From: Methanomassiliicoccaceae archaeon
GTDB lineage: Archaea > Thermoplasmatota > Thermoplasmata > Methanomassiliicoccales > Methanomethylophilaceae
Assembly (NCBI GenBank): GCA_034928305.1
Contig: JAYFOZ010000002.1
Location: 62,001-126,000 of the forward strand
Direction: 5' to 3'
Length of the DNA: 64,000 nucleotides
The notes below the pieces were generated by a model. The model saw only the letters and a program-made list of their open reading frames with translations, was not told the origin of the DNA and did no database searches. How positions within the stretch are numbered: the stretch's first letter is position 1; each line of letters begins with the position of its first letter. Shown here piece after piece: positions 25,014 to 58,900 of the stretch. The translations under genes were made by a program, and so were the position numbers.

Positions 25014-25442
25014 ATGGAACAAGGGGCCCTCGCGATAAAGTTCGAACTGGTGAAATGCATCCAGTGCAAGAAATGCACACGGAACTGCCCATCGGCAAAG
25101 CATGGAGGCATCATACCTAACGAGACGGTATTGGGGGTCCGAGAAGGAAATTATGCCGGAGATCCCTGGACATGCCTGATGTGCCACAGGTGCAGTATGG
25201 TGTGCCCTAAGGGGATAGAGGTAGCAGGATTGGTGCTGGCGCTCCGCAATAACGAAGCGGAGGCAGGCAACTTCCCGGAAAGGTTCGGCAGGGTTTATGG
25301 AAATTTCAGGAAGGCGGGAGACACGATGAGCACAGCGGGTTCGACCGACGAAGAACGCAACGCGTTCGGCCTTTCAAAAATATGCAGAGATCCAGGAGTG
25401 CCCGAGAAGTTGGAAAAGATGTCCGGGAGAAGGGTACAATGA
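25014..25442 (+). CDS. hdrC: Heterodisulfide reductase subunit C-like ferredoxin
   Basis: The 142-residue protein has two 4Fe-4S motifs of the HdrC type: Cys 15, 18, 21, 25 and Cys 54, 57, 60, 64 (CLMCHRCSMVCPKG). In methanogens HdrC passes electrons to HdrB, where the CoM-CoB heterodisulfide is reduced. It is somewhat shorter than the roughly 180 residues I expect, with a loosely conserved C-terminal half. It overlaps the HdrB-like gene by four bases. HdrA is not adjacent, so the electron donor is not shown; another HdrB-type substrate remains possible. Confidence 0.82.
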   Translation: MEQGALAIKFELVKCIQCKKCTRNCPSAKHGGIIPNETVLGVREGNYAGDPWTCLMCHRCSMVCPKGIEVAGLVLALRNNEAEAGNFPERFGRVYGNFRKAGDTMSTAGSTDEERNAFGLSKICRDPGVPEKLEKMSGRRVQ

Positions 25443-26212
25443 AGCTTTTCCCGGGATGTACGGTAAGTTCGAGGCTCCCGTTCGTCGAGTCGGCAGTAAG
25501 GTACATAGCGGAGAGGCTGGAGATCGAGATATCTCCGTCGGGGTGCAGCATGTGCTGTTTCGAGCCCACAGGCCTGAGGTCGATGGACCCGGACATGTGG
25601 ATGTCTGTCGGGAGCATGGTACATTCGATGAACCGCGGAGAATCGCTGGTGACCCTCTGCGAGGGATGCAATCTTTCATTATCGTCATCGGAAGAAGCCC
25701 TAAAGACCGAAGAAGGCGCCGCAGATGCCAAAGAAAGGCTATCGAAGGTCGGAATGGATTTCGGGACGGCGGACGTCCGCGGCCTGCTAGAATTCCTGTA
25801 TGAGAACATCGATGGGATACGCAGGCTGGCTAAAGTGCCAGCAGATGGCATGGGTGCAGTTTTTCCCGGATGTCACGGGGAGTTTGCGTATAAAATCAGG
25901 GGATCGGATGCAGGCACAATGATGTCAGAGATACTCGACGCGGCAGGATGTAATAACATAGTCATCAGGAAGCCCATGTGCTGCGGGGGAGGTCTGCAGG
26001 GAGTTAACGACCAGATAGCCAACGGAATTCTTCAGGACACGGTGGGCGAGTTCAAGGAAGCGGGTGCAGGGTTCGCAGTGGTATCGTGCGTTTTCTGCTT
26101 CCGCAGACTGGACATCTCTGCGAAATATCCAGTGATGCACATATCGGAAGTGGTCGCCCGTTCCATGGGATGGGGGGCGGACACCTCCAGATATCATCGC
26201 ACCAAGCTTTAA
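25439..26212 (+). CDS. hdrB: Heterodisulfide reductase subunit B-like protein
   Basis: The 257-residue protein has both cysteine-rich CCG motifs of HdrB, each with the full five cysteines: Cys 7, 39, 40, 74, 77 and Cys 145, 181, 182, 217, 220. Spacings are C-x31-CC-x33-CxxC and C-x35-CC-x34-CxxC, matching the ligands of the paired noncubane 4Fe-4S clusters that cleave the CoM-CoB disulfide. The ATG overlaps the hdrC stop as ATGA. The 3' end overlaps the convergent nadC by four bases. Which HdrA or flavoprotein it works with is not shown here. Confidence 0.85.
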   Translation: MKLFPGCTVSSRLPFVESAVRYIAERLEIEISPSGCSMCCFEPTGLRSMDPDMWMSVGSMVHSMNRGESLVTLCEGCNLSLSSSEEALKTEEGAADAKERLSKVGMDFGTADVRGLLEFLYENIDGIRRLAKVPADGMGAVFPGCHGEFAYKIRGSDAGTMMSEILDAAGCNNIVIRKPMCCGGGLQGVNDQIANGILQDTVGEFKEAGAGFAVVSCVFCFRRLDISAKYPVMHISEVVARSMGWGADTSRYHRTKL

Positions 26213-43968: not shown

Positions 43969-44919
43969 ATGCCAACTATCCTGAAGCCGGACGAGGTCAA
44001 AGCAAAATACGGCCCCCTGTTCTGCCGCGGGTTCTACACCATGGTGGACGAAGATAACGGCATAGCACAGATAGTCGAGGTATGCTCGTCCAGAGGTCCG
44101 GCAGAATGGGATATAGTCAACCGCCGCCGCACCGGCGGCATAATCAAAGACATAGATCTGGACGGCCAGACTCTGATAATGAACGTCGAGATAGGCGAGA
44201 GGGCCCTGAACTTCGGACCCGTCTCCGCCAACCTGGGAGGACAGGGCGTTTCTTCGCTCAAGGTCGAGGGAGACCGTGTCCGCACCGTATGGAAAGGGCT
44301 CGCAGGAGCGTCGGTCGGGATCGGTGCATGCATCCCGCAATGCCCGGACGTCATCGAGACGGTATATCCGGACGGTTTCAAGATGGGCGGCGCCCATGCC
44401 GCCAGCGTCGAAATCGTCACCCCCAAGATGATACGTCTCGTCATCGGGATAGACGACACGGACACCAAAGAGAAAGGTGCCACATGGGTCGTAGGAATGA
44501 AGCTCGGAAGGTCATGCCCCTACGGCAAGTTCATCGAGCACAAGATAATCCAACTCAACCCCGACGTACCAAGCAAGACGACGAACTGCTGCTCTACAGC
44601 CATATCTTTCGCTGCTGTCGAGGAAGACGTACCGAAGATAATAGAGTACGCTGTAGATTTCGTGAGGAAGGAGTCATACTCTGAAGAAGCCGTAATGGCC
44701 GTTTATAAGGGGCTCAAAATACCAGAGCAACTGAGCGATTTCGGATGGAGCGCCAAAACAGTGCTCTACGATCACCAGGCCGCGATAAAACTGGCCGAGG
44801 AGAACGGCGTACAGATAATCTCCGTTACGGGCATGGGCGGAGTAATCGGTGCGGTGGCGGCCATAGGATGCTTCGACATGGGCGTCCGTGCCGCAGGTAT
44901 TCCCAGCGATTTCGAGTGA
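43969..44919 (+). CDS. mmp11: Methanogenesis marker protein 11
   Basis: The 316-residue protein matches the methanogenesis marker 11 family, found in methanogens with unknown function. The second half has a TiaS-like nucleotide-binding segment IGIDDTDTKEKGATWVVG, followed by HKIIQLNPDVPSKTTNCCST and a glycine-rich GMGGVIGAVAAIG. It could act on RNA or a nucleotide cofactor, which is inference from the TiaS-like motif. The ATG abuts the kptA stop and follows AGGAGGATTGA, a strong ribosome site. Its presence supports a methanogen. Confidence 0.87.
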   Translation: MPTILKPDEVKAKYGPLFCRGFYTMVDEDNGIAQIVEVCSSRGPAEWDIVNRRRTGGIIKDIDLDGQTLIMNVEIGERALNFGPVSANLGGQGVSSLKVEGDRVRTVWKGLAGASVGIGACIPQCPDVIETVYPDGFKMGGAHAASVEIVTPKMIRLVIGIDDTDTKEKGATWVVGMKLGRSCPYGKFIEHKIIQLNPDVPSKTTNCCSTAISFAAVEEDVPKIIEYAVDFVRKESYSEEAVMAVYKGLKIPEQLSDFGWSAKTVLYDHQAAIKLAEENGVQIISVTGMGGVIGAVAAIGCFDMGVRAAGIPSDFE

Positions 44920-45704: not shown

Positions 45705-47432
45705 ATGACAAGATACGATGCAGTGTTCATACACGCCCCCAGCGTCTATGATTTCAGGAAAAAGCCGATATTCTACGGCCCGGTGAGCGATGTGATACCT
45801 TCTTCGCCGGTGTTCGAGATGTACCCGATAGGGTTCATGACCCTAAGTGCCCACCTGCAGAGGGCCGGTTTCAAGACAAGGATCGTCAACATCGCGGTAA
45901 GGATGCTGATGAGCGAGAAGTACGATGCCGAGAAGGCTATCAGAAAGCTCGATTCCAAGGTATACTTTATCGACCTTCATTGGATGCCCCATGCCCACGG
46001 GGCGCTGGAACTTGCCAAGCTCGTAAAGAAGCACCATCCGGATGCGAAGGTGGAGCTCGGAGGGCTGACATCATCGTACTTCTGGGAAGAGCTGATCGCC
46101 CGTCCCGAGGTAGACTTCGTAATGCGTGGCGATTCTACCGAGGAGCCGACGGTCAAGATGATGCAGACCCTCGAGTCCGGAGGGGACATGTCGGAAGTTC
46201 CCAATCTGGTCTGGAAGGATTGCCAGGGGAAAGTCCATGACAACGGCTTGACATTTGTTCCAGATACTCTGGACGATGTGATTTTCGATTACGGCACCAT
46301 GATCAAGGGTGTATTGAAGACCATGGACGTCAAGAGCTCGCTTCCGTGGGCAGGTTGGGATTCCGAACCGCTCACGATGGCCCTGTCGGTACGCGGATGC
46401 TCGTTGAATTGTGCAGAATGCGGCGGATCGCATTACGCGAACGGAAAAGTGGTATGCAGGAGCAGACCGGCATTCAGGAGCCCGGAGAAACTGGCCGAGG
46501 ACCTCGATGCGATACAGAGCTACATGAAAGCACCGATCTTTGTCGTAGGGGACATAAGGCAGAACGGAGACGATTACTCCGAAAGGTTTCTCAGGTCTGT
46601 CAGGGAACGTGGGATAGACAACCACGTCGTGATCGAGCTGTTCAACGGTGCAAGTGCCGATTACTTCAAATCACTGGACCACGCGTTCGACGGCGGGTAC
46701 ACGATCGAGTTCTCACCCGATTCCCACGATGAAGAGGTGCGTTTCGCGCTCGGCAAGGGATACACCAACGAAAACATCGAAAAAACAGTCCAAAACGCCT
46801 TTGAAGGAGGGTGTATGCGGATGGACCTGTTCTATATGACCGGGCTGCCATTCCAGTCATCAGAGTCGGCCGTCAACAGTGCCAGAGCATCAAAGAAACT
46901 ATGGTCGCTAGTCGATAGGAAAGATGGGTTGTTTATATACAACTCTCCCTTCTCGCCCTTCGTCGATCCCGGTAGCAGAGCCTTCGAAGAGCCCGATAAA
47001 TGGGGCTATAAATTCTACGCGAGGACACTGGAGGAGCACCGCGTGCTGCTGGACAGCCCTTCTTGGAAGCTAACGCTGTCCTACGAGACCGATTTTATGA
47101 CCCGTGACCGGATAGCAGAGACATCTTACGATGCGGCCAATGTACTGGCACAATGTGAGTTCGAGGCCGGCAGGATATCGGAGTCACGGTTGATCGACCG
47201 TACCGAGAGGACCGAGTTGGCACGTTCACTAATGCATGAGGTCGACAAGATAATGGCCGTTCGGGACTCCGCGGAGCGCGAGACGCTCCTCTGGGGGATC
47301 AAAGAGAAAGGAATGGAGATGATGAACTCCACGGTATGCGAGAAGGAAGACCTGGCCTGGGACACCAAACCCGTATGGTACAGCGCCCCCAGGGCGCTCA
47401 GGGGATTGCTGTTCCCGCTCAGACATCGCTAA
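45705..47432 (+). CDS. B12-binding radical SAM protein, Ta0216-like
   Basis: The 575-residue protein has an N-terminal cobalamin-binding-like Rossmann domain (about residues 1-170, with FMTLSAHLQRAGF and GGLTSSYF) and a radical SAM barrel. The 4Fe-4S cysteines are in RGCSLNCAECGG, the CX3CX2C motif. It resembles the B12/radical SAM family named after Ta0216 of Thermoplasma. Such enzymes methylate or couple unreactive carbons; related archaeal proteins modify membrane lipids. It follows uppS by three bases, so a lipid or polyprenol substrate is possible but unproven. It is the last gene of its operon. Confidence 0.85.
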   Translation: MTRYDAVFIHAPSVYDFRKKPIFYGPVSDVIPSSPVFEMYPIGFMTLSAHLQRAGFKTRIVNIAVRMLMSEKYDAEKAIRKLDSKVYFIDLHWMPHAHGALELAKLVKKHHPDAKVELGGLTSSYFWEELIARPEVDFVMRGDSTEEPTVKMMQTLESGGDMSEVPNLVWKDCQGKVHDNGLTFVPDTLDDVIFDYGTMIKGVLKTMDVKSSLPWAGWDSEPLTMALSVRGCSLNCAECGGSHYANGKVVCRSRPAFRSPEKLAEDLDAIQSYMKAPIFVVGDIRQNGDDYSERFLRSVRERGIDNHVVIELFNGASADYFKSLDHAFDGGYTIEFSPDSHDEEVRFALGKGYTNENIEKTVQNAFEGGCMRMDLFYMTGLPFQSSESAVNSARASKKLWSLVDRKDGLFIYNSPFSPFVDPGSRAFEEPDKWGYKFYARTLEEHRVLLDSPSWKLTLSYETDFMTRDRIAETSYDAANVLAQCEFEAGRISESRLIDRTERTELARSLMHEVDKIMAVRDSAERETLLWGIKEKGMEMMNSTVCEKEDLAWDTKPVWYSAPRALRGLLFPLRHR

Positions 47433-48385: not shown

Positions 48386-48748
48386 ATGTCACTGATAACG
48401 TACTACATTCCGCTGATGGTACTAGGCGTGGTCTGTATGGGCTTCGCGCCGCTAGCGTGGGTCGTGTCTAGGTTTATAAGACCTACGAAAACGACGCCGT
48501 GGATGGAGTCAACCTATGAGTGCGGGTCGGAACCGATAGGGGACGCACACGTCCAGTTCAGGTTCCAATACTATGCTTTTGCCATCATTTTCGTGGTTTT
48601 CGACCTTGTCGCGACCCTTCTGATGGTTTGGGCTGTAGGATTTTCCGGTCTATCGACCATGGCTCGCATCTGGATTCTCATATTCCTCGGCGTGATGATC
48701 CTGGGCGTATCTTATGCGCTCAAAAAGGAGGAAAAAATATGGATATGA
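48386..48748 (+). CDS. fpoA: Fpo complex subunit A (complex I subunit NuoA-like)
   Basis: Membrane subunit of the archaeal complex I-like proton pump, 120 residues. It has three membrane helices and the NuoA signature WMESTYECGSEPIGDAHVQFRFQYY in the loop after helix 1, with the conserved Glu and Cys. It is the first gene of fpoABCDHIJJKLMN. Its end overlaps the start of fpoB by ten bases. Confidence 0.94.
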   Translation: MSLITYYIPLMVLGVVCMGFAPLAWVVSRFIRPTKTTPWMESTYECGSEPIGDAHVQFRFQYYAFAIIFVVFDLVATLLMVWAVGFSGLSTMARIWILIFLGVMILGVSYALKKEEKIWI

Positions 48749-49302
48749 GTTTGTACCCTCATGCCGTCGCCATGAGCGCGGAAGAGTTCATGGACTGGTC
48801 CACTCTGGTCATCAACGACCTTCTAAGCGCTGGGACCAAGAAAACCGTCGACAAGCTCACAGGTCCTGTCTGGACATGGGCTATGAAAAACTCCATGCAC
48901 CCGTTGCACTGGGGACTGGCCTGTTGCGCCCTCGAGATGGCATCCGCCTCTACGACAAGGCACGACGCAGAGCGTCTCGGAATCATCTATCGTTCATCCC
49001 CGAGGCAGACAGATATTCTGCTCATTAACGGATGGATCGGAAAGAAGGTCCGTCCCTCCATAAGGCGTCTCTACGAGCAGATCCCCAACCCCAAGTGGGT
49101 CATAGCCATGGGCGAGTGCGCCATTTCCGGCGGACCCTGGTATGATTCCTACAACTGCGTTCAGGGAGTCGACCAGATTGTGCCAGTAGACCTTTACATT
49201 CCCGGATGCCCCGTTAAGCCCGACGCGATGATCGACGGCTTCATGCTGCTTCAGAAGAAAATCGGCGATTACTTCAACAGAGGCGTTTTCCTGGAGGACT
49301 GA
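48739..49302 (+). CDS. fpoB: Fpo complex subunit B (NuoB-like)
   Basis: Peripheral subunit carrying the terminal 4Fe-4S cluster N2 that passes electrons to the membrane acceptor. The 187-residue protein has the tandem cysteines LACCALEM plus GECAISGG and PGCPVKPD, the four N2 ligands. It is somewhat extended at the N-terminus. ATG 48739 follows AAGGAGG at seven bases; ATG 48745 is possible. It starts within the last codons of fpoA. Confidence 0.95.
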   Translation: MDMSLYPHAVAMSAEEFMDWSTLVINDLLSAGTKKTVDKLTGPVWTWAMKNSMHPLHWGLACCALEMASASTTRHDAERLGIIYRSSPRQTDILLINGWIGKKVRPSIRRLYEQIPNPKWVIAMGECAISGGPWYDSYNCVQGVDQIVPVDLYIPGCPVKPDAMIDGFMLLQKKIGDYFNRGVFLED

Positions 49303-49304
49303 AG

Positions 49305-49784
49305 ATGATGGACACAGAAGCGATCTATCAGGAGCCCTCGGTCTCCGAGATAAAGCATCTACTTGAAACAAAATTCAAAGGGAAGGTAACGGTCAGCAAG
49401 ACCGATGTCCGCCGCGTTCATGCGGAGATTTTGGACAAAAAGGATGCTTTCGACGTATGTAACTACATCCACGACAACCTGACTTTCGAGCACTGCACGA
49501 TCGTCATGGGCGCGGATATGATCGACCATTTGGAGGTCATATATCTCCTTACCAACTATCACAGCGGAACGGTGATCGAGATCTTTACCAAGCTACCGCT
49601 TGACGATCTCCACGTGCACTCGGTCGCACTCGTATGGGAAGGCGCGAACTGGCACGAGAGGGAGACGTTCGAGCTTTTCGGGATAATTTTCGATGAGCAC
49701 CCGAAACTACAGAGGCTTCTCACTCCGGACACATATACGTTCTTCCCGTTCAGGAAGTCCTATAAACTAAGGGGGCAGGAATGA
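49305..49784 (+). CDS. fpoC: Fpo complex subunit C (NuoC-like)
   Basis: Peripheral arm scaffold subunit of 159 residues, the archaeal counterpart of NuoC. The core is NYHSGTVIEIFTKLPLDDLHVHSVALVWEGANWHE read across the second half, with the family ending WHERETFELFGIIFDEHP and RLLTPDTYTFFPFRKSY. It has no cofactor of its own. ATG 49305 or 49308; it begins two bases after fpoB and overlaps fpoD. Confidence 0.93.
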   Translation: MMDTEAIYQEPSVSEIKHLLETKFKGKVTVSKTDVRRVHAEILDKKDAFDVCNYIHDNLTFEHCTIVMGADMIDHLEVIYLLTNYHSGTVIEIFTKLPLDDLHVHSVALVWEGANWHERETFELFGIIFDEHPKLQRLLTPDTYTFFPFRKSYKLRGQE

Positions 49785-50950
49785 TGGTAGTCGAAAATAC
49801 AATAGACACATTCGATTCACCTCCTGAGGAGAGAATCGGGAAAGAGAAGTACGAAACGGACCAGATGTGGATCTACATGGGTCCGCAGCATCCCTTCTCC
49901 CACGGACTTTGGACACTGAAAGTCAGGGTCGACGGAGAGATAGTCACGGATGCGGAACCCGTTATCGGTTACCTGCACCGCGGCTGGGAGAAAGAGGCCG
50001 AGAACAGGACCTATCCGAAGATCATCCCGATGGCAGACCGTCTTTGCTATTCGGCATCGATGACCTATACTCACCTCTACTGCATGACCGTTGAGAAAGC
50101 CCTGGGGATAGAAGTTCCCGAGAAAGCCAAGTATATCAGGATAGTGGCGGACGAGATCTGCCGTATCCAGTCGCATCTTATGTGGCTTGCGGCCGTCGGA
50201 ACGGACCTAGGTAACCTCACGATTTTCCTGTGGGGAATGAGGGAGAGGGAATACTGGCTCGACCTTAATGTCAGGCTGTGCGGTCAGAGGATGACCACCA
50301 ACTACCCGCGTATCGGCGGAGTCAGGAACGACACTACCGATATATTTGACAGGGATGTAATGAGGTGCACCGAGCGCTTTGAGAAAGCACTCTGGGACAT
50401 TATCAATATGATCGACACCAACTCGATCTATGTATCGAGGATGAAAGGCATCAGTTATCTCACGCGCGAGCAGTGCGCCAACCTTGGCATAACGGGGCCC
50501 GCGATGAGAGGATGCGGAGTAGACTTCGACCTGCGTCGCGACGACCCGTACGACAACTATGAGCACATCGATTTCGAGGTGCCCGTCCTGAAAGAAGGGG
50601 ACACCTATGCCAGATATATGGTCAGGATCGAAGAGATGTTCCAGTCCTGTGAGATAATCAGGCAGGCTGTCCGCAAGATCAATGCTCTCGGCAAGAATGC
50701 GCCCTATAGGCTCAAGGTACCTTCCAAGGTACCGGCAGGAAAAACATTCTGCAAGCTCGAGGACCCTCGCGGCGAGTCGCTGATGTACTTGATATCGGAC
50801 GGCACGGACAAGCCCTTCAGGCTTAAGGTCCGCGCGCCGCTGTTCACTAACATATCCGCATCGAGGCCCATGGTCAAAGGAGTCAGGGTCGCCGATGTTC
50901 CGGCAGTGATGGCTATGATCGATGTTTGCATGGGAGAAACGGACAGGTGA
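49781..50950 (+). CDS. fpoD: Fpo complex subunit D (NuoD-like, quinone/methanophenazine site)
   Basis: The 389-residue subunit is related to the large subunit of NiFe hydrogenases and forms the lipid-electron-carrier site with FpoB. It has the conserved MGPQHPFSHG start, the GYLHRGWEKEAENRTYPK segment that holds the acceptor-binding His, RLCGQRMTTNYPRIGGV and the C-terminal ADVPAVMAMIDVCMGETDR. Nickel-binding cysteines of hydrogenase are absent, as in all complex I. It overlaps fpoC by four bases. Confidence 0.95.
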   Translation: MMVVENTIDTFDSPPEERIGKEKYETDQMWIYMGPQHPFSHGLWTLKVRVDGEIVTDAEPVIGYLHRGWEKEAENRTYPKIIPMADRLCYSASMTYTHLYCMTVEKALGIEVPEKAKYIRIVADEICRIQSHLMWLAAVGTDLGNLTIFLWGMREREYWLDLNVRLCGQRMTTNYPRIGGVRNDTTDIFDRDVMRCTERFEKALWDIINMIDTNSIYVSRMKGISYLTREQCANLGITGPAMRGCGVDFDLRRDDPYDNYEHIDFEVPVLKEGDTYARYMVRIEEMFQSCEIIRQAVRKINALGKNAPYRLKVPSKVPAGKTFCKLEDPRGESLMYLISDGTDKPFRLKVRAPLFTNISASRPMVKGVRVADVPAVMAMIDVCMGETDR

Positions 50951-50954
50951 TACT

Positions 50955-52127
50955 ATGGTTTCTTCAATGAAAGATTGGATTCAATATGGGGACCCGATGT
51001 CCAACGCGTACTATCCGTACGACACGTACAACGTGGTCTATGACATCGGTTTCGAGGTGTACCAGTTCCTAGGAGGAATTGTAGCCTGGCTCATCAACCT
51101 TCTGATACCCGGGAACTGGCTTTCGGAATGGCTGGTATCAGATGCCGTAGTCAACGCGTTCGCGATAATCATACTGGCGCTGCTGATATTCCTGGTGATA
51201 TTCGTCGGGGTACTGATATCGCTGTGGGAAGAGCGTAAAGTTCTCGGAAGGTTCATGGACAGAAGAGGGACCATGATAGGCATGAAGGGATTCATGCAGT
51301 GCGTCGCCGACGGTCTCAAGACCTTCATGAAAGAGAACACCATGCCCAAGAAGATCGACAAAATGACCTACATGTGGACCGTTTCACTGGTCATAGGCAC
51401 GTCGGTCCTTGTTGCGTGCATGTTGCCTCTTTCCGACAGGTTCTACATCGTGAACTTCGATTCCGGTCTCCTGATCGTTATGGCGCTGTACGCTTTGGCG
51501 CCATTCTTCATCCTGGTTTCCGGCTGGTCGCAGAACAACAAATATTCTCTGATCGGAGGAATGAGGGCTGCGGAGTCGATGATATCATACGAGATTCCGA
51601 TGCTCATCATCGTATGTTCCGTGGCAGTATTGTCTGGAACATTCAATATCGGCGGCATAGTGGCCGCTCAGAACGAATCGATGTGGTACATCATCCCGCT
51701 GTTCATAGGTTTCATCGTGTTCTTCACATGTGCGTGTGCAGAATCCGAGCGTTCGCCCTTCGACCTGGCAGAAGCAGAGGCCGAACTGGTCGAGGGATGG
51801 CAGACAGAGTACGCCGGAATGAAATGGGGACTCATAATGCTTGGAGATTATCTCAGGGGATTCGCCTCCTGTGCGATGATATCCATCATGTTCCTCGGAG
51901 GCTGGAATATAGCTCCGTTCGCATCCGATGCCGTCAACGGATTCCTTCCCGAAGTCGTACAGCTCCTCAAGGGCTGGTTCATCTTCTTCATAATGATCTG
52001 GGTCAGAGTAGCTCTGCCCCGTGTTAGGATCGATCAGATCCTCAACCTCGGATGGAAGGTGTTCATGCCGTTGTCTGTGATCAACCTGGTAATTGCGGTA
52101 TTGCTCAAAGTAGGAGGTGTCTTCTGA
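50955..52127 (+). CDS. fpoH: Fpo complex subunit H (NuoH-like membrane anchor)
   Basis: Membrane subunit linking the peripheral arm to the pump modules; 390 residues with about eight helices. The conserved cytoplasmic loop reads ERKVLGRFMDRRG, followed by PKKIDK and CAESERSPFDLAEAEAELVEG with the conserved acidic residues. ATG 50955 is preceded by GGTGAT at three bases. The first 40 residues form a hydrophilic N-terminus and a helix typical of archaeal FpoH. It shares one base with fpoI. Confidence 0.95.
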   Translation: MVSSMKDWIQYGDPMSNAYYPYDTYNVVYDIGFEVYQFLGGIVAWLINLLIPGNWLSEWLVSDAVVNAFAIIILALLIFLVIFVGVLISLWEERKVLGRFMDRRGTMIGMKGFMQCVADGLKTFMKENTMPKKIDKMTYMWTVSLVIGTSVLVACMLPLSDRFYIVNFDSGLLIVMALYALAPFFILVSGWSQNNKYSLIGGMRAAESMISYEIPMLIIVCSVAVLSGTFNIGGIVAAQNESMWYIIPLFIGFIVFFTCACAESERSPFDLAEAEAELVEGWQTEYAGMKWGLIMLGDYLRGFASCAMISIMFLGGWNIAPFASDAVNGFLPEVVQLLKGWFIFFIMIWVRVALPRVRIDQILNLGWKVFMPLSVINLVIAVLLKVGGVF

Positions 52128-52867
52128 TGCCTATAAAATATCTAGATAAGTATCCGAAAAACCCGGCGAGGACCCTTTGGGTTCTGAAGCCCATGTGGGT
52201 CAGCCTTAAGCTGTTCTTCAAGACCGTAACCCACAGGCCCGTCACCATTCTCTATCCTTACGAGAAGGAGTGGATTCCCGACAATTATCGCGGACGCCCG
52301 GGGCTCAGGTTCGATAAGTGCATCGGTTGCGGAGTATGTTCGAGGATGTGCCCTACGGGGTGCATCAAGATGGTCGATGTTGCGGACGACGATGGCAAGA
52401 TGGTATCGAGGCCGCAGGTGTTCGTCGGAAGGTGCGCCTTCTGCGGGTACTGCGCTGAATACTGCCCGGTGAACGCGATGACCGTGACGCCCGAATATGA
52501 ACTGGCAGAGCTGTTCAAGGAAGATCTGTTCTACGGACCCCGCAGGCTGAATTTCAAGGACACAACGCCCGGAATGGAGGTACATCTGGAGATGACCCTC
52601 CAGTCCGATATCGATGCAGGGCGCTCAGAGAGGAGGGTACTCCCCTATGAGATAGACAACCCTGTCGTCGATGAGGACCTATGCATCGGATGCAAGAAGT
52701 GCCAGAAGGTATGTCCCGTCGATGCCGTTACGATGGTCGAGAAGGGCCTTAACGCCAAAGGCAAGCCCAAGCTCATTCCGGAGTTCGATGCGAAAAAGTG
52801 CATATGCTGCGAGAACTGCGTAATCGACTGTCCCAAGGACGCAATAATCATTGAGGAGGTGCTCTGA
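52127..52867 (+). CDS. fpoI: Fpo complex subunit I with four 4Fe-4S motifs
   Basis: Electron-carrying subunit of the peripheral arm, 246 residues. NuoI/FpoI proteins carry two 4Fe-4S clusters; here they are Cys 65, 68, 71, 75 and Cys 103, 106, 109, 113. A second ferredoxin-like module of about 70 residues follows, with Cys 186, 189, 192, 196 and Cys 225, 228, 231, 235. This C-terminal addition is unlike the shorter FpoI of Methanosarcina as I recall it. Since the operon has no fpoF, the extra module may accept electrons from ferredoxin or a partner protein, which is inference. Confidence 0.93.
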   Translation: MPIKYLDKYPKNPARTLWVLKPMWVSLKLFFKTVTHRPVTILYPYEKEWIPDNYRGRPGLRFDKCIGCGVCSRMCPTGCIKMVDVADDDGKMVSRPQVFVGRCAFCGYCAEYCPVNAMTVTPEYELAELFKEDLFYGPRRLNFKDTTPGMEVHLEMTLQSDIDAGRSERRVLPYEIDNPVVDEDLCIGCKKCQKVCPVDAVTMVEKGLNAKGKPKLIPEFDAKKCICCENCVIDCPKDAIIIEEVL

Positions 52868-53199
52868 TGTCTACAATACAAAACATTTGGAACGAGTTCA
52901 CCGACTATCTGGGGTACCTCGGCAACAACGGTGACCTGGTGATGTTCCTGGCCGTAGCGGCCATCGGAATAACCGCTGCGTTGTTCGTGGTTACCGATAA
53001 GGAGGCAATGCACAGTGCATTCTACCTCGCCCTTGTGTTTGTAGTCGTGGCAGTTGTCTTCCTGTTCCTGGAAGCCGAGTTCATGGCGATCATACAGCTA
53101 TTCGTGTACGTCGGTGCTATCACCATACTGTTTGCGTTCAGCATAATGCTTACGAGACGTTACATCATGAAGTCCGGAGGTGGCAACGATGATGAGTAA
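52867..53199 (+). CDS. fpoJ1: Fpo complex subunit J, N-terminal part (NuoJ-like)
   Basis: The 110-residue protein corresponds to the first half of NuoJ, with three membrane helices and the conserved EAEFMAIIQLFVYVGAITILF segment in helix 3. The second half is a separate gene immediately downstream, a split also known in Methanosarcina. It shares one base with fpoI and overlaps fpoJ2 by 11 bases. Confidence 0.92.
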   Translation: MSTIQNIWNEFTDYLGYLGNNGDLVMFLAVAAIGITAALFVVTDKEAMHSAFYLALVFVVVAVVFLFLEAEFMAIIQLFVYVGAITILFAFSIMLTRRYIMKSGGGNDDE

Positions 53200-53485
53200 G
53201 AGAACGATCTACGGAATCGTCACGGCCGTCATAGTGATGGTCGCACTCACGTTCGCCGTGTTCGCCACCGGATGGGGGGACATTGTCACCTACGACTGGC
53301 CTCAGTCGATGCCTACCTTCAACCCGATAGATGGAAGCGGAAACCTCCTTGCAGGTTCGCTTACATACGTGGTGTTTGAAACATATGGCCCCATCGTCGC
53401 ACTGCTGGCATTGATAATGTTCGGTGCAATGGTCGGTGCGATATGCGTTGCAAAAGAGGAGGTTGATGACGATGATTCCAATTGA
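53189..53485 (+). CDS. fpoJ2: Fpo complex subunit J, C-terminal part (NuoJ-like)
   Basis: The 98-residue protein corresponds to the second half of NuoJ: a helix at residues about 7-27, a loop, and a last helix (TYGPIVALLALIMFGAMVGAI) with an acidic tail. ATG 53189 sits six bases after GGAGGTG, within the end of fpoJ1; ATG 53192 is the alternative. The product probably completes the NuoJ fold with FpoJ1. Confidence 0.88.
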   Translation: MMSKRTIYGIVTAVIVMVALTFAVFATGWGDIVTYDWPQSMPTFNPIDGSGNLLAGSLTYVVFETYGPIVALLALIMFGAMVGAICVAKEEVDDDDSN

Positions 53486-53774
53486 ATTCTTCCTCATGTT
53501 CTCGGCCATACTGTTCGTCATAGGAACATATGGAATAATGACCAAGAACAACGCGATTGTCGTGCTGATGTGCATCGAGATGGTCCTGAACGCCGCAAAC
53601 ATAAACCTTGTCGCTTTCGCCGCATATAACGGCGAAATAATGGGACAGGTTTTCGTGGTGTTCACCGTTGCGATCGCAGCATGCGAGGTCGCTGTGGGCA
53701 TAGCAATATTGCTCAACGCATACAAAATGAAGAAAACGACCGTCATAGACGATCTTACGGAATTGAGGTGGTAA
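53472..53774 (+). CDS. fpoK: Fpo complex subunit K (NuoK-like)
   Basis: The 100-residue membrane subunit has three helices with the conserved buried Glu in LMCIEMVLNAANINLVAF and a second Glu in the AACEVAVGIAILL helix, both important for proton pumping in NuoK. ATG 53472 is eight bases after GAGGAGGT and gives the standard NuoK length. It begins inside the end of fpoJ2 and is one base from fpoL. Confidence 0.93.
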   Translation: MIPIEFFLMFSAILFVIGTYGIMTKNNAIVVLMCIEMVLNAANINLVAFAAYNGEIMGQVFVVFTVAIAACEVAVGIAILLNAYKMKKTTVIDDLTELRW

Positions 53775-53775
53775 G

Positions 53776-55830
53776 ATGTTCATCGAATATACATGGCTCA
53801 TACCGGTGATTCCGCTGATTTTCTTCGTTATCATCGGTCTGATCGGAAAGAAGACCCCCAAAGAAGGGGGGTTGATTGCAATCATAGGGGCCTTGGTATC
53901 CTTCGTCCTGTCCGTGCTGGTGGTGTACGAGTTCCTAACGGGACCCGCTTACAACGGCGGCATCGGTTATGTGACGGATGCGGTAACATGGTTCACGATC
54001 CCGGGCGGGTTCACGCTCACACTGGGATACTACGTGGATGGGCTTACTTGCGTAATGCTGATGTTCTCCTCCCTGATCTCCCTGCTGATCTTCATCTACT
54101 CGATAGGGTACATGCATGACCAGGGAAAGAGGAACAGGAGATACTTCGCAGAAGTGAGCCTTTTCCTCGCAGGAATGCTGGGGCTCATAATCTCCAACAA
54201 CTACCTGATGACCTTCGTCTTCTGGGAGGTAATGGGCCTTTGCTCGTACCTCCTGATAGGATTCTGGAGCTTCAGGCACCCTGAAGGCGATGTCGCTTCC
54301 GACAAAGCCGCTTCCGCCGCAAAGAAGGCGTTCATAGTTACCCGCCTGGGAGACGTTTCGTTCATGGCAGGACTGTTCGTACTTCTGTACGCGTTCCAGT
54401 CCCTGGACTACGTTAGCCTGTTCGAGCCCTCGGCCATAGCCGCTGTCGACTCGAATCTGATAATCCTTGCTACTCTCCTGCTTTTCGGAGGTGCGATCGG
54501 AAAGAGCGCACAGTTCCCTCTGCAGGACTGGTTGCCGGATGCGATGGCGGGCCCGACCACGGTTTCAGCTTTGATACACGCGGCGACGATGGTCAAGGCG
54601 GGCGTGTACCTCGTTGCGAGGAGCTACCCGCTGTTCGTCCAGTCTGCGGACGTCATGCTGCTCGTCGGCCTGATCGGAGGAATCACCGCAATACTTGCGG
54701 CCTCCATGGCGCTTAACAATATGAACATAAAGAAAGTCCTCGCGTTCTCGACGATTTCCCAGCTCGGTTACATGATAATGGCACTGGGAGCCGGCGGATA
54801 CATGATGGCAATAGGGATGCAGGAAAACAACCCGGCCCTTATTGCCGCGGGCGCAGCCGGATACACCGCAGGTGTGTTCCACATGTTCAACCACGCCTTC
54901 TTCAAGGCATTGCTGTTCATGGGGTCCGGTTCGGTCATCCATTCGTGCGGTACCGAGGACATGCGCGAGATGGGCGGCCTCGGTAAGAAGATGAAGTGGA
55001 CTTCGATAACCATGCTGATCGGTTCATTATCGATTGCAGGGTTCCCCTTCTTCAGCGGTTTCTGGTCGAAAGACCTCGTGCTCGAGTCTGTTATGAAGGC
55101 GTCGGAGTTTGGACCCGAGGGCTACATATTCGCAATAATATGGGTTCTGGGAGTCGTGACCGCGTTCATGACCGCGTTCTACATGTTCCGCATGTGGTAC
55201 ATGACGTTCGGAGGACCCAAGGGTCACGCAACCGAGCACTCGCACGGCGAGTCCCCGGCATCCATGACCATCCCCTTGATGTTGCTTGCGATATTCGCGT
55301 TCGGTTCCGGTTTCCTGATTCTGTTCGGGCTTGACGGCATAATAACCATATCCCCCGATGCGATCACAGGTGCGTTCACAGTGGGAATGCACGACGGTCA
55401 CGGAGCAGCGCACTTCATCGAAGAGCTGTTCACCAACCCGTACACCTACCTGACCATAGTCCTGGCACTGCTGGGGATATACATTGCGTACCTCATGTAC
55501 AGCAAGTTCTCGGTCAACCCCGGGAGGTTCAACAAGGAAGGACAGTCCAGGCTCTACAATGCCCTGGAGAAGAGATGGTGGTTCCCCCAGTTGTACGACT
55601 GGATTTCCTGGAAGTTCGGATACGGCATCGGAAAAGGTGTCGATTACTTCGACAGGAACGTGGTCGACGGGACCGTCAACGGACTCTCCAGTGCAGTTGT
55701 GGGTTCAGGCGAGAGCGCCAAGTACGTCCAGACAGGAAACGTGGGCAACTATGCTTCGATCGTGATGATCGGTGTAGCGGCGGTATTCGTCGTTGCCCTT
55801 GTATTTATCTATTTCATGGGAGGGATGTAA
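53776..55830 (+). CDS. fpoL: Fpo complex subunit L (NuoL-like antiporter subunit)
   Basis: Largest membrane pump subunit, 684 residues with about 16 helices. It has the antiporter family core: FWEVMGLCSYLLIGFW with the key Glu, KSAQFPLQDWLPDAMAGPTTVSALIHAATMVKAG with the key Lys, and the AFSTISQLGYM and FNHAFFKALLFMGSGSVIH helices. The C-terminal lateral helix region follows. Its gene ends one base before fpoM. Confidence 0.95.
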   Translation: MFIEYTWLIPVIPLIFFVIIGLIGKKTPKEGGLIAIIGALVSFVLSVLVVYEFLTGPAYNGGIGYVTDAVTWFTIPGGFTLTLGYYVDGLTCVMLMFSSLISLLIFIYSIGYMHDQGKRNRRYFAEVSLFLAGMLGLIISNNYLMTFVFWEVMGLCSYLLIGFWSFRHPEGDVASDKAASAAKKAFIVTRLGDVSFMAGLFVLLYAFQSLDYVSLFEPSAIAAVDSNLIILATLLLFGGAIGKSAQFPLQDWLPDAMAGPTTVSALIHAATMVKAGVYLVARSYPLFVQSADVMLLVGLIGGITAILAASMALNNMNIKKVLAFSTISQLGYMIMALGAGGYMMAIGMQENNPALIAAGAAGYTAGVFHMFNHAFFKALLFMGSGSVIHSCGTEDMREMGGLGKKMKWTSITMLIGSLSIAGFPFFSGFWSKDLVLESVMKASEFGPEGYIFAIIWVLGVVTAFMTAFYMFRMWYMTFGGPKGHATEHSHGESPASMTIPLMLLAIFAFGSGFLILFGLDGIITISPDAITGAFTVGMHDGHGAAHFIEELFTNPYTYLTIVLALLGIYIAYLMYSKFSVNPGRFNKEGQSRLYNALEKRWWFPQLYDWISWKFGYGIGKGVDYFDRNVVDGTVNGLSSAVVGSGESAKYVQTGNVGNYASIVMIGVAAVFVVALVFIYFMGGM

Positions 55831-55831
55831 G

Positions 55832-57391
55832 GTGTTCGACGAAATTTTCGCTGAGATCCCCATACTGATGTTGTTGCTGGTGATTCCCCTAATAGGGGCA
55901 GTCGCAACGCTCTTTATGGGCGGAGAGAGACAGAAGTACGCAAAGTACGTGGCGGGAGCCTTCTCAGGTGTAACGCTGGTACTTGTGATACTCCTAATGT
56001 TCGTCGATAATATGGCGCTCCTTTCGGAGAACTATCTTTGGATCGACGCCGCAAACATCAGGATATCGTTCATACTGGAAATAGACGGGCTCAGCCTGTT
56101 GATGGTCCTGCTGACCGCTCTGCTGGTGTTCCTGGTCGTCGTGTTCTCGGCATCCGAGAGCGACAGGCCGAACTACTTCCACACGCTGATAATGATCATG
56201 GAGCTGGGTCTGATGGGTGTCTACCTGTCGGCCGATTACTTCCTGTTCTACATCATGTGGGAAGTAACGCTGATCCCGATGTACTTCATGATATCATGGT
56301 ACGGAGGGCCCAGAAGGCACTATTCGGCAATCAAGTTCTTCATCTATACGCATGTGGCGAGCCTGGTCATGCTGATCGGTATCTTCGCGATCGTGTTCCA
56401 GGCGGCAGCAATAAACCCCGGCGTAATTGCGGACTTCTCGTTCGCCGCCGTGAACGCTGCGTCTGGATCGTTCGGCGAGGTATTCCAGGTGCTGGTGTTC
56501 GGTCTGTTGTTCTTCGGGTTTGCAGTCAAGATGCCCGCGGTCCCGTTCCACACATGGCTTCCGGACGCGCACGTCGAGGCACCTACCGGAGGCTCGGTCC
56601 TGCTTGCAGGTGTCATGCTTAAGATGGGATCTTACGGTATAATCAGGGTCGCACTCAACGCTCTACCCGACGGAGCAATCTGGTGGGCGGAGATAATATT
56701 GGTCGTTGCCTTGATTTCGATAGTCTACGGCGCTTACGCATGTATCGCGCAGACCGACCTCAAAAAGATGGTGGCCTATTCGTCCATCAACCACATGGGA
56801 ATGGTCATGCTGGGTATCGCCGCATCGCTGCTGTACGTCAAGTACGCCGCGTCGCCCGACCCCGTAATAGCGCAGATAGGAATCGAATTCGCGATATTCC
56901 AGATGTTCGCCCACGGCCTCGTTACCGCAGTGCTGTTCATGGTGTGCGGTTTCACCGGTCATGCCTTGGGAACGAGGGAGATTCCGCTTCTCGGCGGTCT
57001 GGCAGGAAAATTACCTGCCTTCGCAACCTTCATGATGATCGGTTTCATGGCCTCGCTGGGTCTGCCCGGTCTCGTAGGGTTCTGGGGAGAGTTCGGAGTG
57101 ATATTCTCGTTCTACGTGGCGGCGGAAGCCATGGGACAGATATGGCTGATAGTATTCTGCCTGCTGTCCATCATGCTGAACGCAGGGTTTTACATATGGG
57201 CGATGCAGAGAACGCTGTTCGGCAGGGAGACCACCAAGGTCGATCTGTCTCATGTGCACGATGTTAGCAAGGCCGAGGGCTTCGCACTGGCGGTGCTGTG
57301 CATAGTCATAGCGCTGTTCGGTATTTGGCCCGACTTCGCTCTGGGCTATATCGAGACTTTCGTGGCAAACTTTGCCATGCCGGGGGTGTGA
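55832..57391 (+). CDS. fpoM: Fpo complex subunit M (NuoM-like antiporter subunit)
   Basis: Proton-pumping subunit of 519 residues with about 14 helices. Key residues are in IMWEVTLIPMYFMISWYGG (Glu) and VKMPAVPFHTWLPDAHVEAPTGGSVLLAG (Lys and His), then DLKKMVAYSSINHMG. The start is GTG 55832, one base after the fpoL stop and behind GGGAGGGAT. A longer frame exists but overlaps fpoL. Confidence 0.94.
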   Translation: MFDEIFAEIPILMLLLVIPLIGAVATLFMGGERQKYAKYVAGAFSGVTLVLVILLMFVDNMALLSENYLWIDAANIRISFILEIDGLSLLMVLLTALLVFLVVVFSASESDRPNYFHTLIMIMELGLMGVYLSADYFLFYIMWEVTLIPMYFMISWYGGPRRHYSAIKFFIYTHVASLVMLIGIFAIVFQAAAINPGVIADFSFAAVNAASGSFGEVFQVLVFGLLFFGFAVKMPAVPFHTWLPDAHVEAPTGGSVLLAGVMLKMGSYGIIRVALNALPDGAIWWAEIILVVALISIVYGAYACIAQTDLKKMVAYSSINHMGMVMLGIAASLLYVKYAASPDPVIAQIGIEFAIFQMFAHGLVTAVLFMVCGFTGHALGTREIPLLGGLAGKLPAFATFMMIGFMASLGLPGLVGFWGEFGVIFSFYVAAEAMGQIWLIVFCLLSIMLNAGFYIWAMQRTLFGRETTKVDLSHVHDVSKAEGFALAVLCIVIALFGIWPDFALGYIETFVANFAMPGV

Positions 57392-57394
57392 TAA

Positions 57395-58900
57395 ATGGTA
57401 GATATTGATATCAATTGGATAACCGACTCGTTCGGAAGCATGACCCCGGTACTGCCCATGGTGCTTGTCATCATAGGGGCATTGCTGATGCCGGGCATTC
57501 ACCTTCTCTTCAAGAGAAAAGATGTGACCTGCGCGGTATCGCTTGCGTTTGTGGTTCTGGCGGCAGTATTCAACATACTGCTTCTGCTCGGGCACTACAA
57601 CGGGACGTATTACGACCTGTTCACATACGACGCGTTCTCGGGACTGATGATCCTGCTTTTCCAGGTCGTCGCATTCATTGCTATCCTGATTGCGGGCCCC
57701 AGCAGCGAGACGACCAAGTTGCACGTCGGTGCGTTCTATTCGCTGATGCTCATCGCAACGGCGGGAATGGCATTCGTTGCAACAGCTTCCGACCTGCTAC
57801 TGATCTTCGTGGGCGTCGAGATGGTAAGCATCCCGTCGTACGCGATGGTCGCAATGAAGAAAAAAGACCCCAGGGCCTCTGAGGCCGCTGTCAAGTACGT
57901 CATCATCGGAGGACTTTCTTCCGGTCTGACGATATACGGTATTTCTATGCTGTTCGGCCTTACGGGCACGACCAACATCGCGGATATCGCGGCGGCACTC
58001 GCAACCCAGGGATACACCGCAGGCCTCGTAATCGCGCTTGCGACTATGATCGCAGGATATGGTTTCAAGATCGCGGCGGCTCCGTTCCACATGTGGGCCC
58101 CCGACGTGTACGAGGGGGCAGCGACACCGGTTTCTCTGTTCCTTGCTACAGGCTCCAAGAAAATGGGGCTCGTGGTATACATCAAGGTCTTTTTCGTGAT
58201 GTTCGTCACGATACAGGCGGCCCAGCCGTTCATGACCGAGTCGATCCAGTACGTGTTCGCGATCCTTGCGGCCATCACGATGACCGTAGGAAATATACTG
58301 GCCATCGTACAGGGCAATGTGAAGAGAATGCTGGCATACTCTTCGATAGCCCAGGCAGGTTACATGCTTATGGCGATCGCGATCATGAGCGAGTGGGCGA
58401 TGACAGGAACAATCTACTACATGTTCGCGCACGTGTTCATGAAGGGCGGAGCGTTCGTGGTCGTAGCTGCGCTGATAACGGCCGGCGTCGGAGAGAACCT
58501 CAAGGATTACAGAGGACTTGCAAAGAGGGCACCGTTGCTTTCAGCTGTGATGCTTCTATGTGTGTTCTCGCTTGCGGGAATACCCCCTCTGGCGGGATTC
58601 ACAGCAAAGTTCTTCCTGTTCTCGGCCGCAATCGTGCCCGGGCTCGGAGAACCGGTATCGGCACAGTGGGTGTGGCTCGCGTTCGTGGCAATACTGAACT
58701 CTGCCATTTCGCTGTATTATTACGCCAAGATAGTCAAGGCGATGTACATCGAGAAGGGAGAGTCCGAAGAGAAGATCAAGGTCCCCGTGGCATTCACGAT
58801 AGCAGCAGTATTGTGCGTCTTAGGAGTAATCGCGATGGGTGTATTCCCTGAGCCGTTCCTATATTACTGCTCGCAGGCCGCGGCCGCCATTATGCCTTGA
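57395..58900 (+). CDS. fpoN: Fpo complex subunit N (NuoN-like antiporter subunit)
   Basis: Last pump subunit, 501 residues with about 14 helices. The antiporter motifs are FVGVEMVSIPSYAM (Glu), FKIAAAPFHMWAPDVYEGAATPVSLFLATGSKK (Lys and following helix) and VKRMLAYSSIAQAGYM. It ends the operon and is followed by a strong terminator hairpin. No fpoO or fpoF gene follows, in keeping with the reduced Fpo complex of Methanomassiliicoccales. Confidence 0.94.
   Translation: MVDIDINWITDSFGSMTPVLPMVLVIIGALLMPGIHLLFKRKDVTCAVSLAFVVLAAVFNILLLLGHYNGTYYDLFTYDAFSGLMILLFQVVAFIAILIAGPSSETTKLHVGAFYSLMLIATAGMAFVATASDLLLIFVGVEMVSIPSYAMVAMKKKDPRASEAAVKYVIIGGLSSGLTIYGISMLFGLTGTTNIADIAAALATQGYTAGLVIALATMIAGYGFKIAAAPFHMWAPDVYEGAATPVSLFLATGSKKMGLVVYIKVFFVMFVTIQAAQPFMTESIQYVFAILAAITMTVGNILAIVQGNVKRMLAYSSIAQAGYMLMAIAIMSEWAMTGTIYYMFAHVFMKGGAFVVVAALITAGVGENLKDYRGLAKRAPLLSAVMLLCVFSLAGIPPLAGFTAKFFLFSAAIVPGLGEPVSAQWVWLAFVAILNSAISLYYYAKIVKAMYIEKGESEEKIKVPVAFTIAAVLCVLGVIAMGVFPEPFLYYCSQAAAAIMP

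Follow-up and report, generated by a model that had tools for sequence, protein, structure and literature searches.

How does a complex of the Fpo type take up electrons when it lacks FpoF, and does an enlarged FpoI subunit mark the place where they enter? The question is raised by one gene in the window, by which we mean the whole stretch of 64,000 nucleotides from a Methanomassiliicoccaceae archaeon (contig JAYFOZ010000002.1) that was analysed here. The features that bear on it are the following.

48386..58900, + strand: fpo operon A-B-C-D-H-I-Jn-Jc-K-L-M-N, contiguous or overlapping open reading frames with NCBIfam matches
52127..52867, + strand: fpoI, 246 residues, four 4Fe-4S motifs, TIGR01971 NuoI match
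52127..52549, + strand: NuoI/FpoI core, residues 1-141, from matches to TIGR01971, the FpoI profile, PDB NuoI sequences and Foldseek NuoI structures
52319..52351, + strand: 4Fe-4S motif 1, CIGCGVCSRMC, residues 65-75
52433..52465, + strand: 4Fe-4S motif 2, CAFCGYCAEYC, residues 103-113
52550..52660, + strand: linker, residues 142-178, dN/dS above both domains in close comparisons
52661..52864, + strand: extra C-terminal dicluster ferredoxin module, residues 179-246, from Pfam, PDB sequence matches and AF2
52682..52714, + strand: 4Fe-4S motif 3, CIGCKKCQKVC, residues 186-196
52799..52831, + strand: 4Fe-4S motif 4, CICCENCVIDC, residues 225-235

Translation of 52127-52867 (+) gives 246 residues without an internal stop, and the preliminary description, which had claimed four complete 4Fe-4S motifs in a single protein of this length, was exact: complete Cx2Cx2Cx3C motifs start at residues 65, 103, 186 and 225. 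The fpoI reading frame is well defined because it overlaps the genes on both sides, its start codon with the fpoH stop (TGATG at 52125-52129) and its stop codon with the ATG of the following gene (TGATG at 52865-52869). The gene sits between H and J, as expected for NuoI/FpoI in a complex I operon. The operon itself, in which FpoA, C, D, H, I, J, K and L have NCBIfam matches, is of the 11-subunit complex I type and lacks both FpoF and FpoO. It thus has the composition of the headless Methanomassiliicoccales Fpo (fpoABCDHIJKLMN without fpoF or fpoO, FpoO being judged in the operon only), and its gene order matches that of the published Methanomassiliicoccales operon (PMC4153887). The short gene that takes the place of the FpoJ C-terminus (53180-53485, +) gave no hit in NCBIfam at E 0.001.

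Up to residue 141 the protein is a normal NuoI/FpoI, with its dicluster motifs at the usual place. The NuoI family TIGR01971 matches residues 26-141 at 152.1 bits (cut-off 113.05), the FpoI profile NF040612 matches residues 31-141 and ends where the TIGR01971 match ends, PDB NuoI sequences match residues ~19-143, and the model of the protein has Foldseek matches to NuoI (best E 2.2e-10). This core is expected to hold clusters N6a and N6b. With the TIGR01971 match to the core and a second ferredoxin domain behind it, the protein is, as had been proposed, an FpoI/NuoI extended at its C-terminus by a dicluster module.

The added domain has Pfam Fer4 and dicluster matches at residues 179-240, and its best PDB sequence matches, when it is taken in isolation, are the polyferredoxins FwdF and MvhB, which serve as electron wires. 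The AF2 model of the whole protein (pLDDT 82.9, pTM 0.67; pLDDT ~85-91 across most of the module) contains two ferredoxin helix/strand patterns, and a Foldseek/PDB structure match to FwdF extends over ~205-214 columns with poor placement (rmsd ~23 Å); at a pTM of 0.67 the relative placement of core and module in the model is uncertain. Across 59 aligned homologues, with identities down to 32%, none of the 16 cysteines varies; the set was chosen to consist of full-length four-motif relatives, so that the figure measures constancy within that group. Four motifs with nearly fixed spacing are likewise present in 77 of 77 Methanomassiliicoccales loci (37 from contigs, L005-L041, and 40 from whole-genome searches, L001 and L054-L092; genomes may overlap). 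The module is under purifying selection near that of the core (dN/dS ~0.04-0.16), and the linker is usually less constrained than either domain (0.09-0.12, against 0.02-0.04 for the core and 0.06-0.08 for the module, when the window fpoI is compared with those of L005, L006 and L025). The invariant cysteines, the consistency of all 77 loci and the selection on the module together argue that the four motifs are not a product of chance. In most of the Methanomassiliicoccales tested the core is basic (pI ~8.6-9.3) and the part behind it acidic (pI ~4.8-5.7), the exceptions being L083 and L084, in which the post-core part is neutral to basic.

The source genome (1.34 Mb, 98.9% complete, mcrA present) gave no match to the FpoF/FrhB family PF04432, and no NuoF was found in it; the absence of FpoF asserted in the preliminary description therefore applies to the genome as well as to the operon. 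The genome also has a gene for an HdrD-like protein of 582 residues (L203 640-2388, genome contig C5), which continues past its second CCG domain in a C-terminal tail made up of a repeated PKEVAK-type stretch and then ~100 further residues. Elsewhere in the window lie two adjacent, overlapping genes (25014-26212, +) for HdrC-like and HdrB-like proteins of 142 and 276 residues, a divergent HdrBC pair whose Hdr profile scores are well under the cut-offs; a homologue of methanogenesis marker protein 11 (43969-44919, +; TIGR03280, 217 bits against a cut-off of 256); and a TIGR04190 B12-binding radical SAM protein (45705-47432, +; 619 bits).

Is the module a property of methyl-reducing methanogens that have lost FpoF, as had been supposed? 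A search of the class Thermoplasmata matched 280 of 300 genomes, unrelated ferredoxins included, and motif counts were taken from the proteins themselves, L191 being left out for its unusable reading frame. Four-motif NuoI occurs in Thermoplasmata families f11, f12, f16, f20, f22, f24, f25 and f28 and, in the rest of the phylum, in f34 and f46; NuoI of f8 and f21 has five or six motifs, one f7 protein has three perfect ones, and two-motif NuoI is found in f19, f29, f30, f15 and f27. Thermoplasmatales-like genomes have a two-motif NuoI and mostly no NuoF. Every genome tested outside the Methanomassiliicoccales (f7, f8, f11, f12, f16, f20-f22, f24, f25, f28, f34 and f46) lacks mcrA, and non-methanogenic Thermoplasmatota thus carry four to six motifs, which severs the proposed tie to methyl-reducing methanogens. 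Most Thermoplasmata loci with the whole operon on the fetched stretch read A-B-C-D-H-I-J-K-L-M(-N) with no E/F/G or F insertions, f16 and f20 having A-B on the opposite strand; the NuoF family had no match in 37 of the 44 genomes tested, and FrhB-family genes were absent from 35 of 43. Two variations on this organization were seen in passing: a nuoB-nuoI pair detached from the complex I operon in f22, f24, f25 and f28 (L093-L096, L101, L102, L106), and a NuoI of 302-325 residues with a third dicluster module in f8 and f21 (L097-L099, L103, L104, L107, L121, L122).

Among 296 Halobacteriota genomes searched, matches reach into the module in ~25. Fourteen of these loci were fetched, and ten (L211-L220) encode a four-motif I subunit in the gene order N-A-B/C fusion-D-H-I, some of them truncated by contig ends; in all eight with long enough contigs the gene after I encodes an FpoF/FqoF-type F420 protein (PF04432 or NF040616). 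Their gene content, gene order and phylum indicate that these are probably Fqo complexes of the Archaeoglobales/ANME-1 type (discussed in PMC3949148 and PMC9012536). Membrane hydrogenases were considered for these N-A-BC-D-H-I loci and rejected, the D subunit having no NiFe cysteine pairs and the gene after I being FpoF/FqoF-like. FpoI-type proteins of the class Methanosarcinia have two motifs in those translated, and among the matches listed for 120 genomes of the class no FpoI-type match extends beyond query residue 158; the premise that ordinary FpoI has two motifs is thus correct for Methanosarcina and Methanothrix. The further claim that the module goes with the loss of FpoF fails on both sides. 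Four motifs occur together with an F420H2 subunit in the Fqo operons and two motifs occur without one in headless complexes, so the proposed correlation does not hold. The mcrA-less carriers and the four-motif I subunits of Fqo exclude a module specific to FpoF-less methyl-reducing methanogens, and the two-motif headless cases exclude one required for a headless complex.

Because non-methanogenic relatives carry it too, the module is an old Thermoplasmatota feature rather than a compensation for FpoF loss. Few gains or losses of the module are seen on the NuoI-core tree, where the label "four or more" changes three times among 83 rows. In a tree of single diclusters the C-terminal modules of the Thermoplasmatota cluster together (SH-aLRT 89) and those of Fqo are separate (SH-aLRT 97), which suggests that the Thermoplasmatota acquired theirs in one old addition and Fqo separately, with a confidence limited by the short 66-column alignment. 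A duplication of the protein's own NuoI domain is one conceivable source of the module, though core dicluster domain and module share only 30% identity in the window protein. Since some other Thermoplasmatota have five or six motifs, the subunit may have been lengthened step by step. We tentatively propose, as an idea with somewhat less than an even chance of being right, that archaeal subunit I is a modular input wire in which C-terminal ferredoxin modules added stepwise (two, four, five or six motifs) set the electron donor, having been gained at least once in the Thermoplasmatota and separately in Fqo.

What, then, might the module do? In the published scheme, bifurcation by MvhADG/HdrABC yields reduced ferredoxin, headless Fpo pumps protons as it oxidises this ferredoxin, and HdrD reduces the heterodisulfide (PMC6019823, PMC7374477); HdrD there receives electrons from Fpo, which runs against the HdrD-type electron source named in the preliminary description. 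PMC7374477 cites a report of ferredoxin oxidation coupled to heterodisulfide reduction in M. luminyensis and gives free ferredoxin as the reported electron donor to the membranes of this organism, which agrees with the ferredoxin donor named in the preliminary description. As entry points for ferredoxin electrons in complexes that have neither an NADH nor an F420H2 module, FeS clusters of FpoB or FpoI in Methanothrix (PMC10470525) or of FqoBCDI in ANME-1 (PMC9012536) have been proposed.

Our best reading, held with moderate confidence, is that FpoI is a subunit I in which a tethered, ferredoxin-like 2[4Fe-4S] unit serves as a relay where electrons enter the peripheral arm. Reduced ferredoxin supplied by MvhADG/HdrABC bifurcation would donate to the module (residues 179-246), which would act as an outer relay and pass electrons to N6a, N6b, N2 and then a membrane-side acceptor, from which they would reach HdrD while proton pumping is driven. 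Assembly of all four clusters, electron flow through the module and the direction of this flow are inferred. Several lines of evidence converge on a relay: the 16 invariant ligand cysteines and the core-like purifying selection on the module; the ferredoxin patterns of the AF2 model and the structure matches to NuoI and FwdF; the nearness of the module to FwdF and MvhB; a basic core with an acidic remainder, as expected for ferredoxin docking on NuoI; a source genome without FpoF/FrhB and NuoF; the parallel four-motif I subunit beside FqoF in Fqo operons; and the longer versions in other Thermoplasmatota. Against it speaks that headless two-motif complexes of the Thermoplasmatales-like and Methanothrix types appear to work, and that an acidic module could repel free, acidic ferredoxin, so that the donor may be another protein.

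This last point leads to an alternative that we consider unlikely, in which the module docks a specific donor protein rather than free ferredoxin, with electrons still entering there. The partners envisaged are HdrABC/Mvh or a polyferredoxin-type protein in methanogens, FqoF in Fqo and other dehydrogenases in non-methanogens. Besides the acidic surface, which is unexpected for a ferredoxin-binding site, the four-motif I gene directly adjoins that of FqoF, an obvious partner, in the Fqo operons, and the well-supported separation of Thermoplasmatota and Fqo modules looks as if each had been shaped by its partner. No partner gene, however, lies in the window fpo operon or between subunit genes in the further Thermoplasmata operons that were inspected, and M. 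luminyensis membranes are reported to accept electrons from free ferredoxin (PMC7374477). We regard as quite improbable a structural or accessory domain that would stabilise the arm at its open end or buffer electrons outside the main electron path. It would fit with the headless two-motif complexes that do without a module and with the non-FeS tail that Methanothrix has at the same place; yet none of the eight module cysteines varies among the 59 proteins, which is stricter than a purely structural role requires, and the fold of the module is the usual one of dicluster electron-transfer domains. An exit, by which the module would pass electrons from the arm to HdrD, no HdrE, cytochrome or methanophenazine pathway being reported, is very improbable: HdrD without HdrE is indeed the published acceptor in Methanomassiliicoccales (PMC6019823, PMC7374477) and the source genome has its HdrD-like gene, but the module occurs in many mcrA-less genomes that are not expected to make heterodisulfide and in Fqo complexes, which reduce menaquinone (PMC3949148), and electrons that left by subunit I would never reach N2 and the coupling site, with the result that proton pumping would not occur.

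If the module is a tethered relay, subunit I, with its conserved additional ferredoxin domain, offers a concrete candidate entry point for electrons in gut methanogens and in many uncultured Thermoplasmatota. In the openly accessible literature we found no mention of an FpoI or NuoI with four motifs; the available part of Borrel et al. 2014 (PMC4153887) lists fpoI, notes that FpoF and FpoO are lacking and does not mention extra clusters.

Set beside known systems, the module has its nearest solved sequence relatives in FwdF and MvhB, which, unlike the window FpoI, are soluble polyferredoxin subunits of other enzymes and have no NuoI core. The other Thermoplasmatota NuoI proteins (f8, f11, f12, f16, f20-f22, f24, f25, f28, f34, f46) share the C-terminal dicluster module or modules but differ in motif spacing, in the extra module of f8 and f21 and in the lack of mcrA in the genomes tested. 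Methanosarcina FpoI (NF040612) is the same subunit, encoded between H and J, and the window core aligns to positions 10-124 of its 135-position profile; it differs in having two motifs, no C-terminal module and FpoF as a partner. The window protein scores 103.4 bits against the NF040612 cut-off of 180 and, with four motifs in a genome without PF04432, departs from the Methanosarcina pattern of two clusters and an FpoF partner. Methanothrix-type Fpo resembles the window complex in being headless and without FpoF, and is reported to take electrons from ferredoxin (PMC10470525), but its FpoI has two motifs and a Lys/Ala-rich C-terminal tail (pI ~9.6) without cysteine motifs. Such long, low-complexity Lys/Ala-rich tails stand where Thermoplasmatota carry the module in L183-L190, L156, L160, L161, L163, L164 and L166. 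The I subunit of the Fqo-type loci is built like the window FpoI, with a NuoI core, a linker and a C-terminal dicluster module and four motifs in 237-252 residues, whereas the complexes differ: FqoF is encoded in the Fqo operon and not with the window complex, B and C are fused, motif spacing is different and the modules group apart. Fqo (module and FqoF) and Methanothrix (no module) offer ready controls for the entry-point idea.
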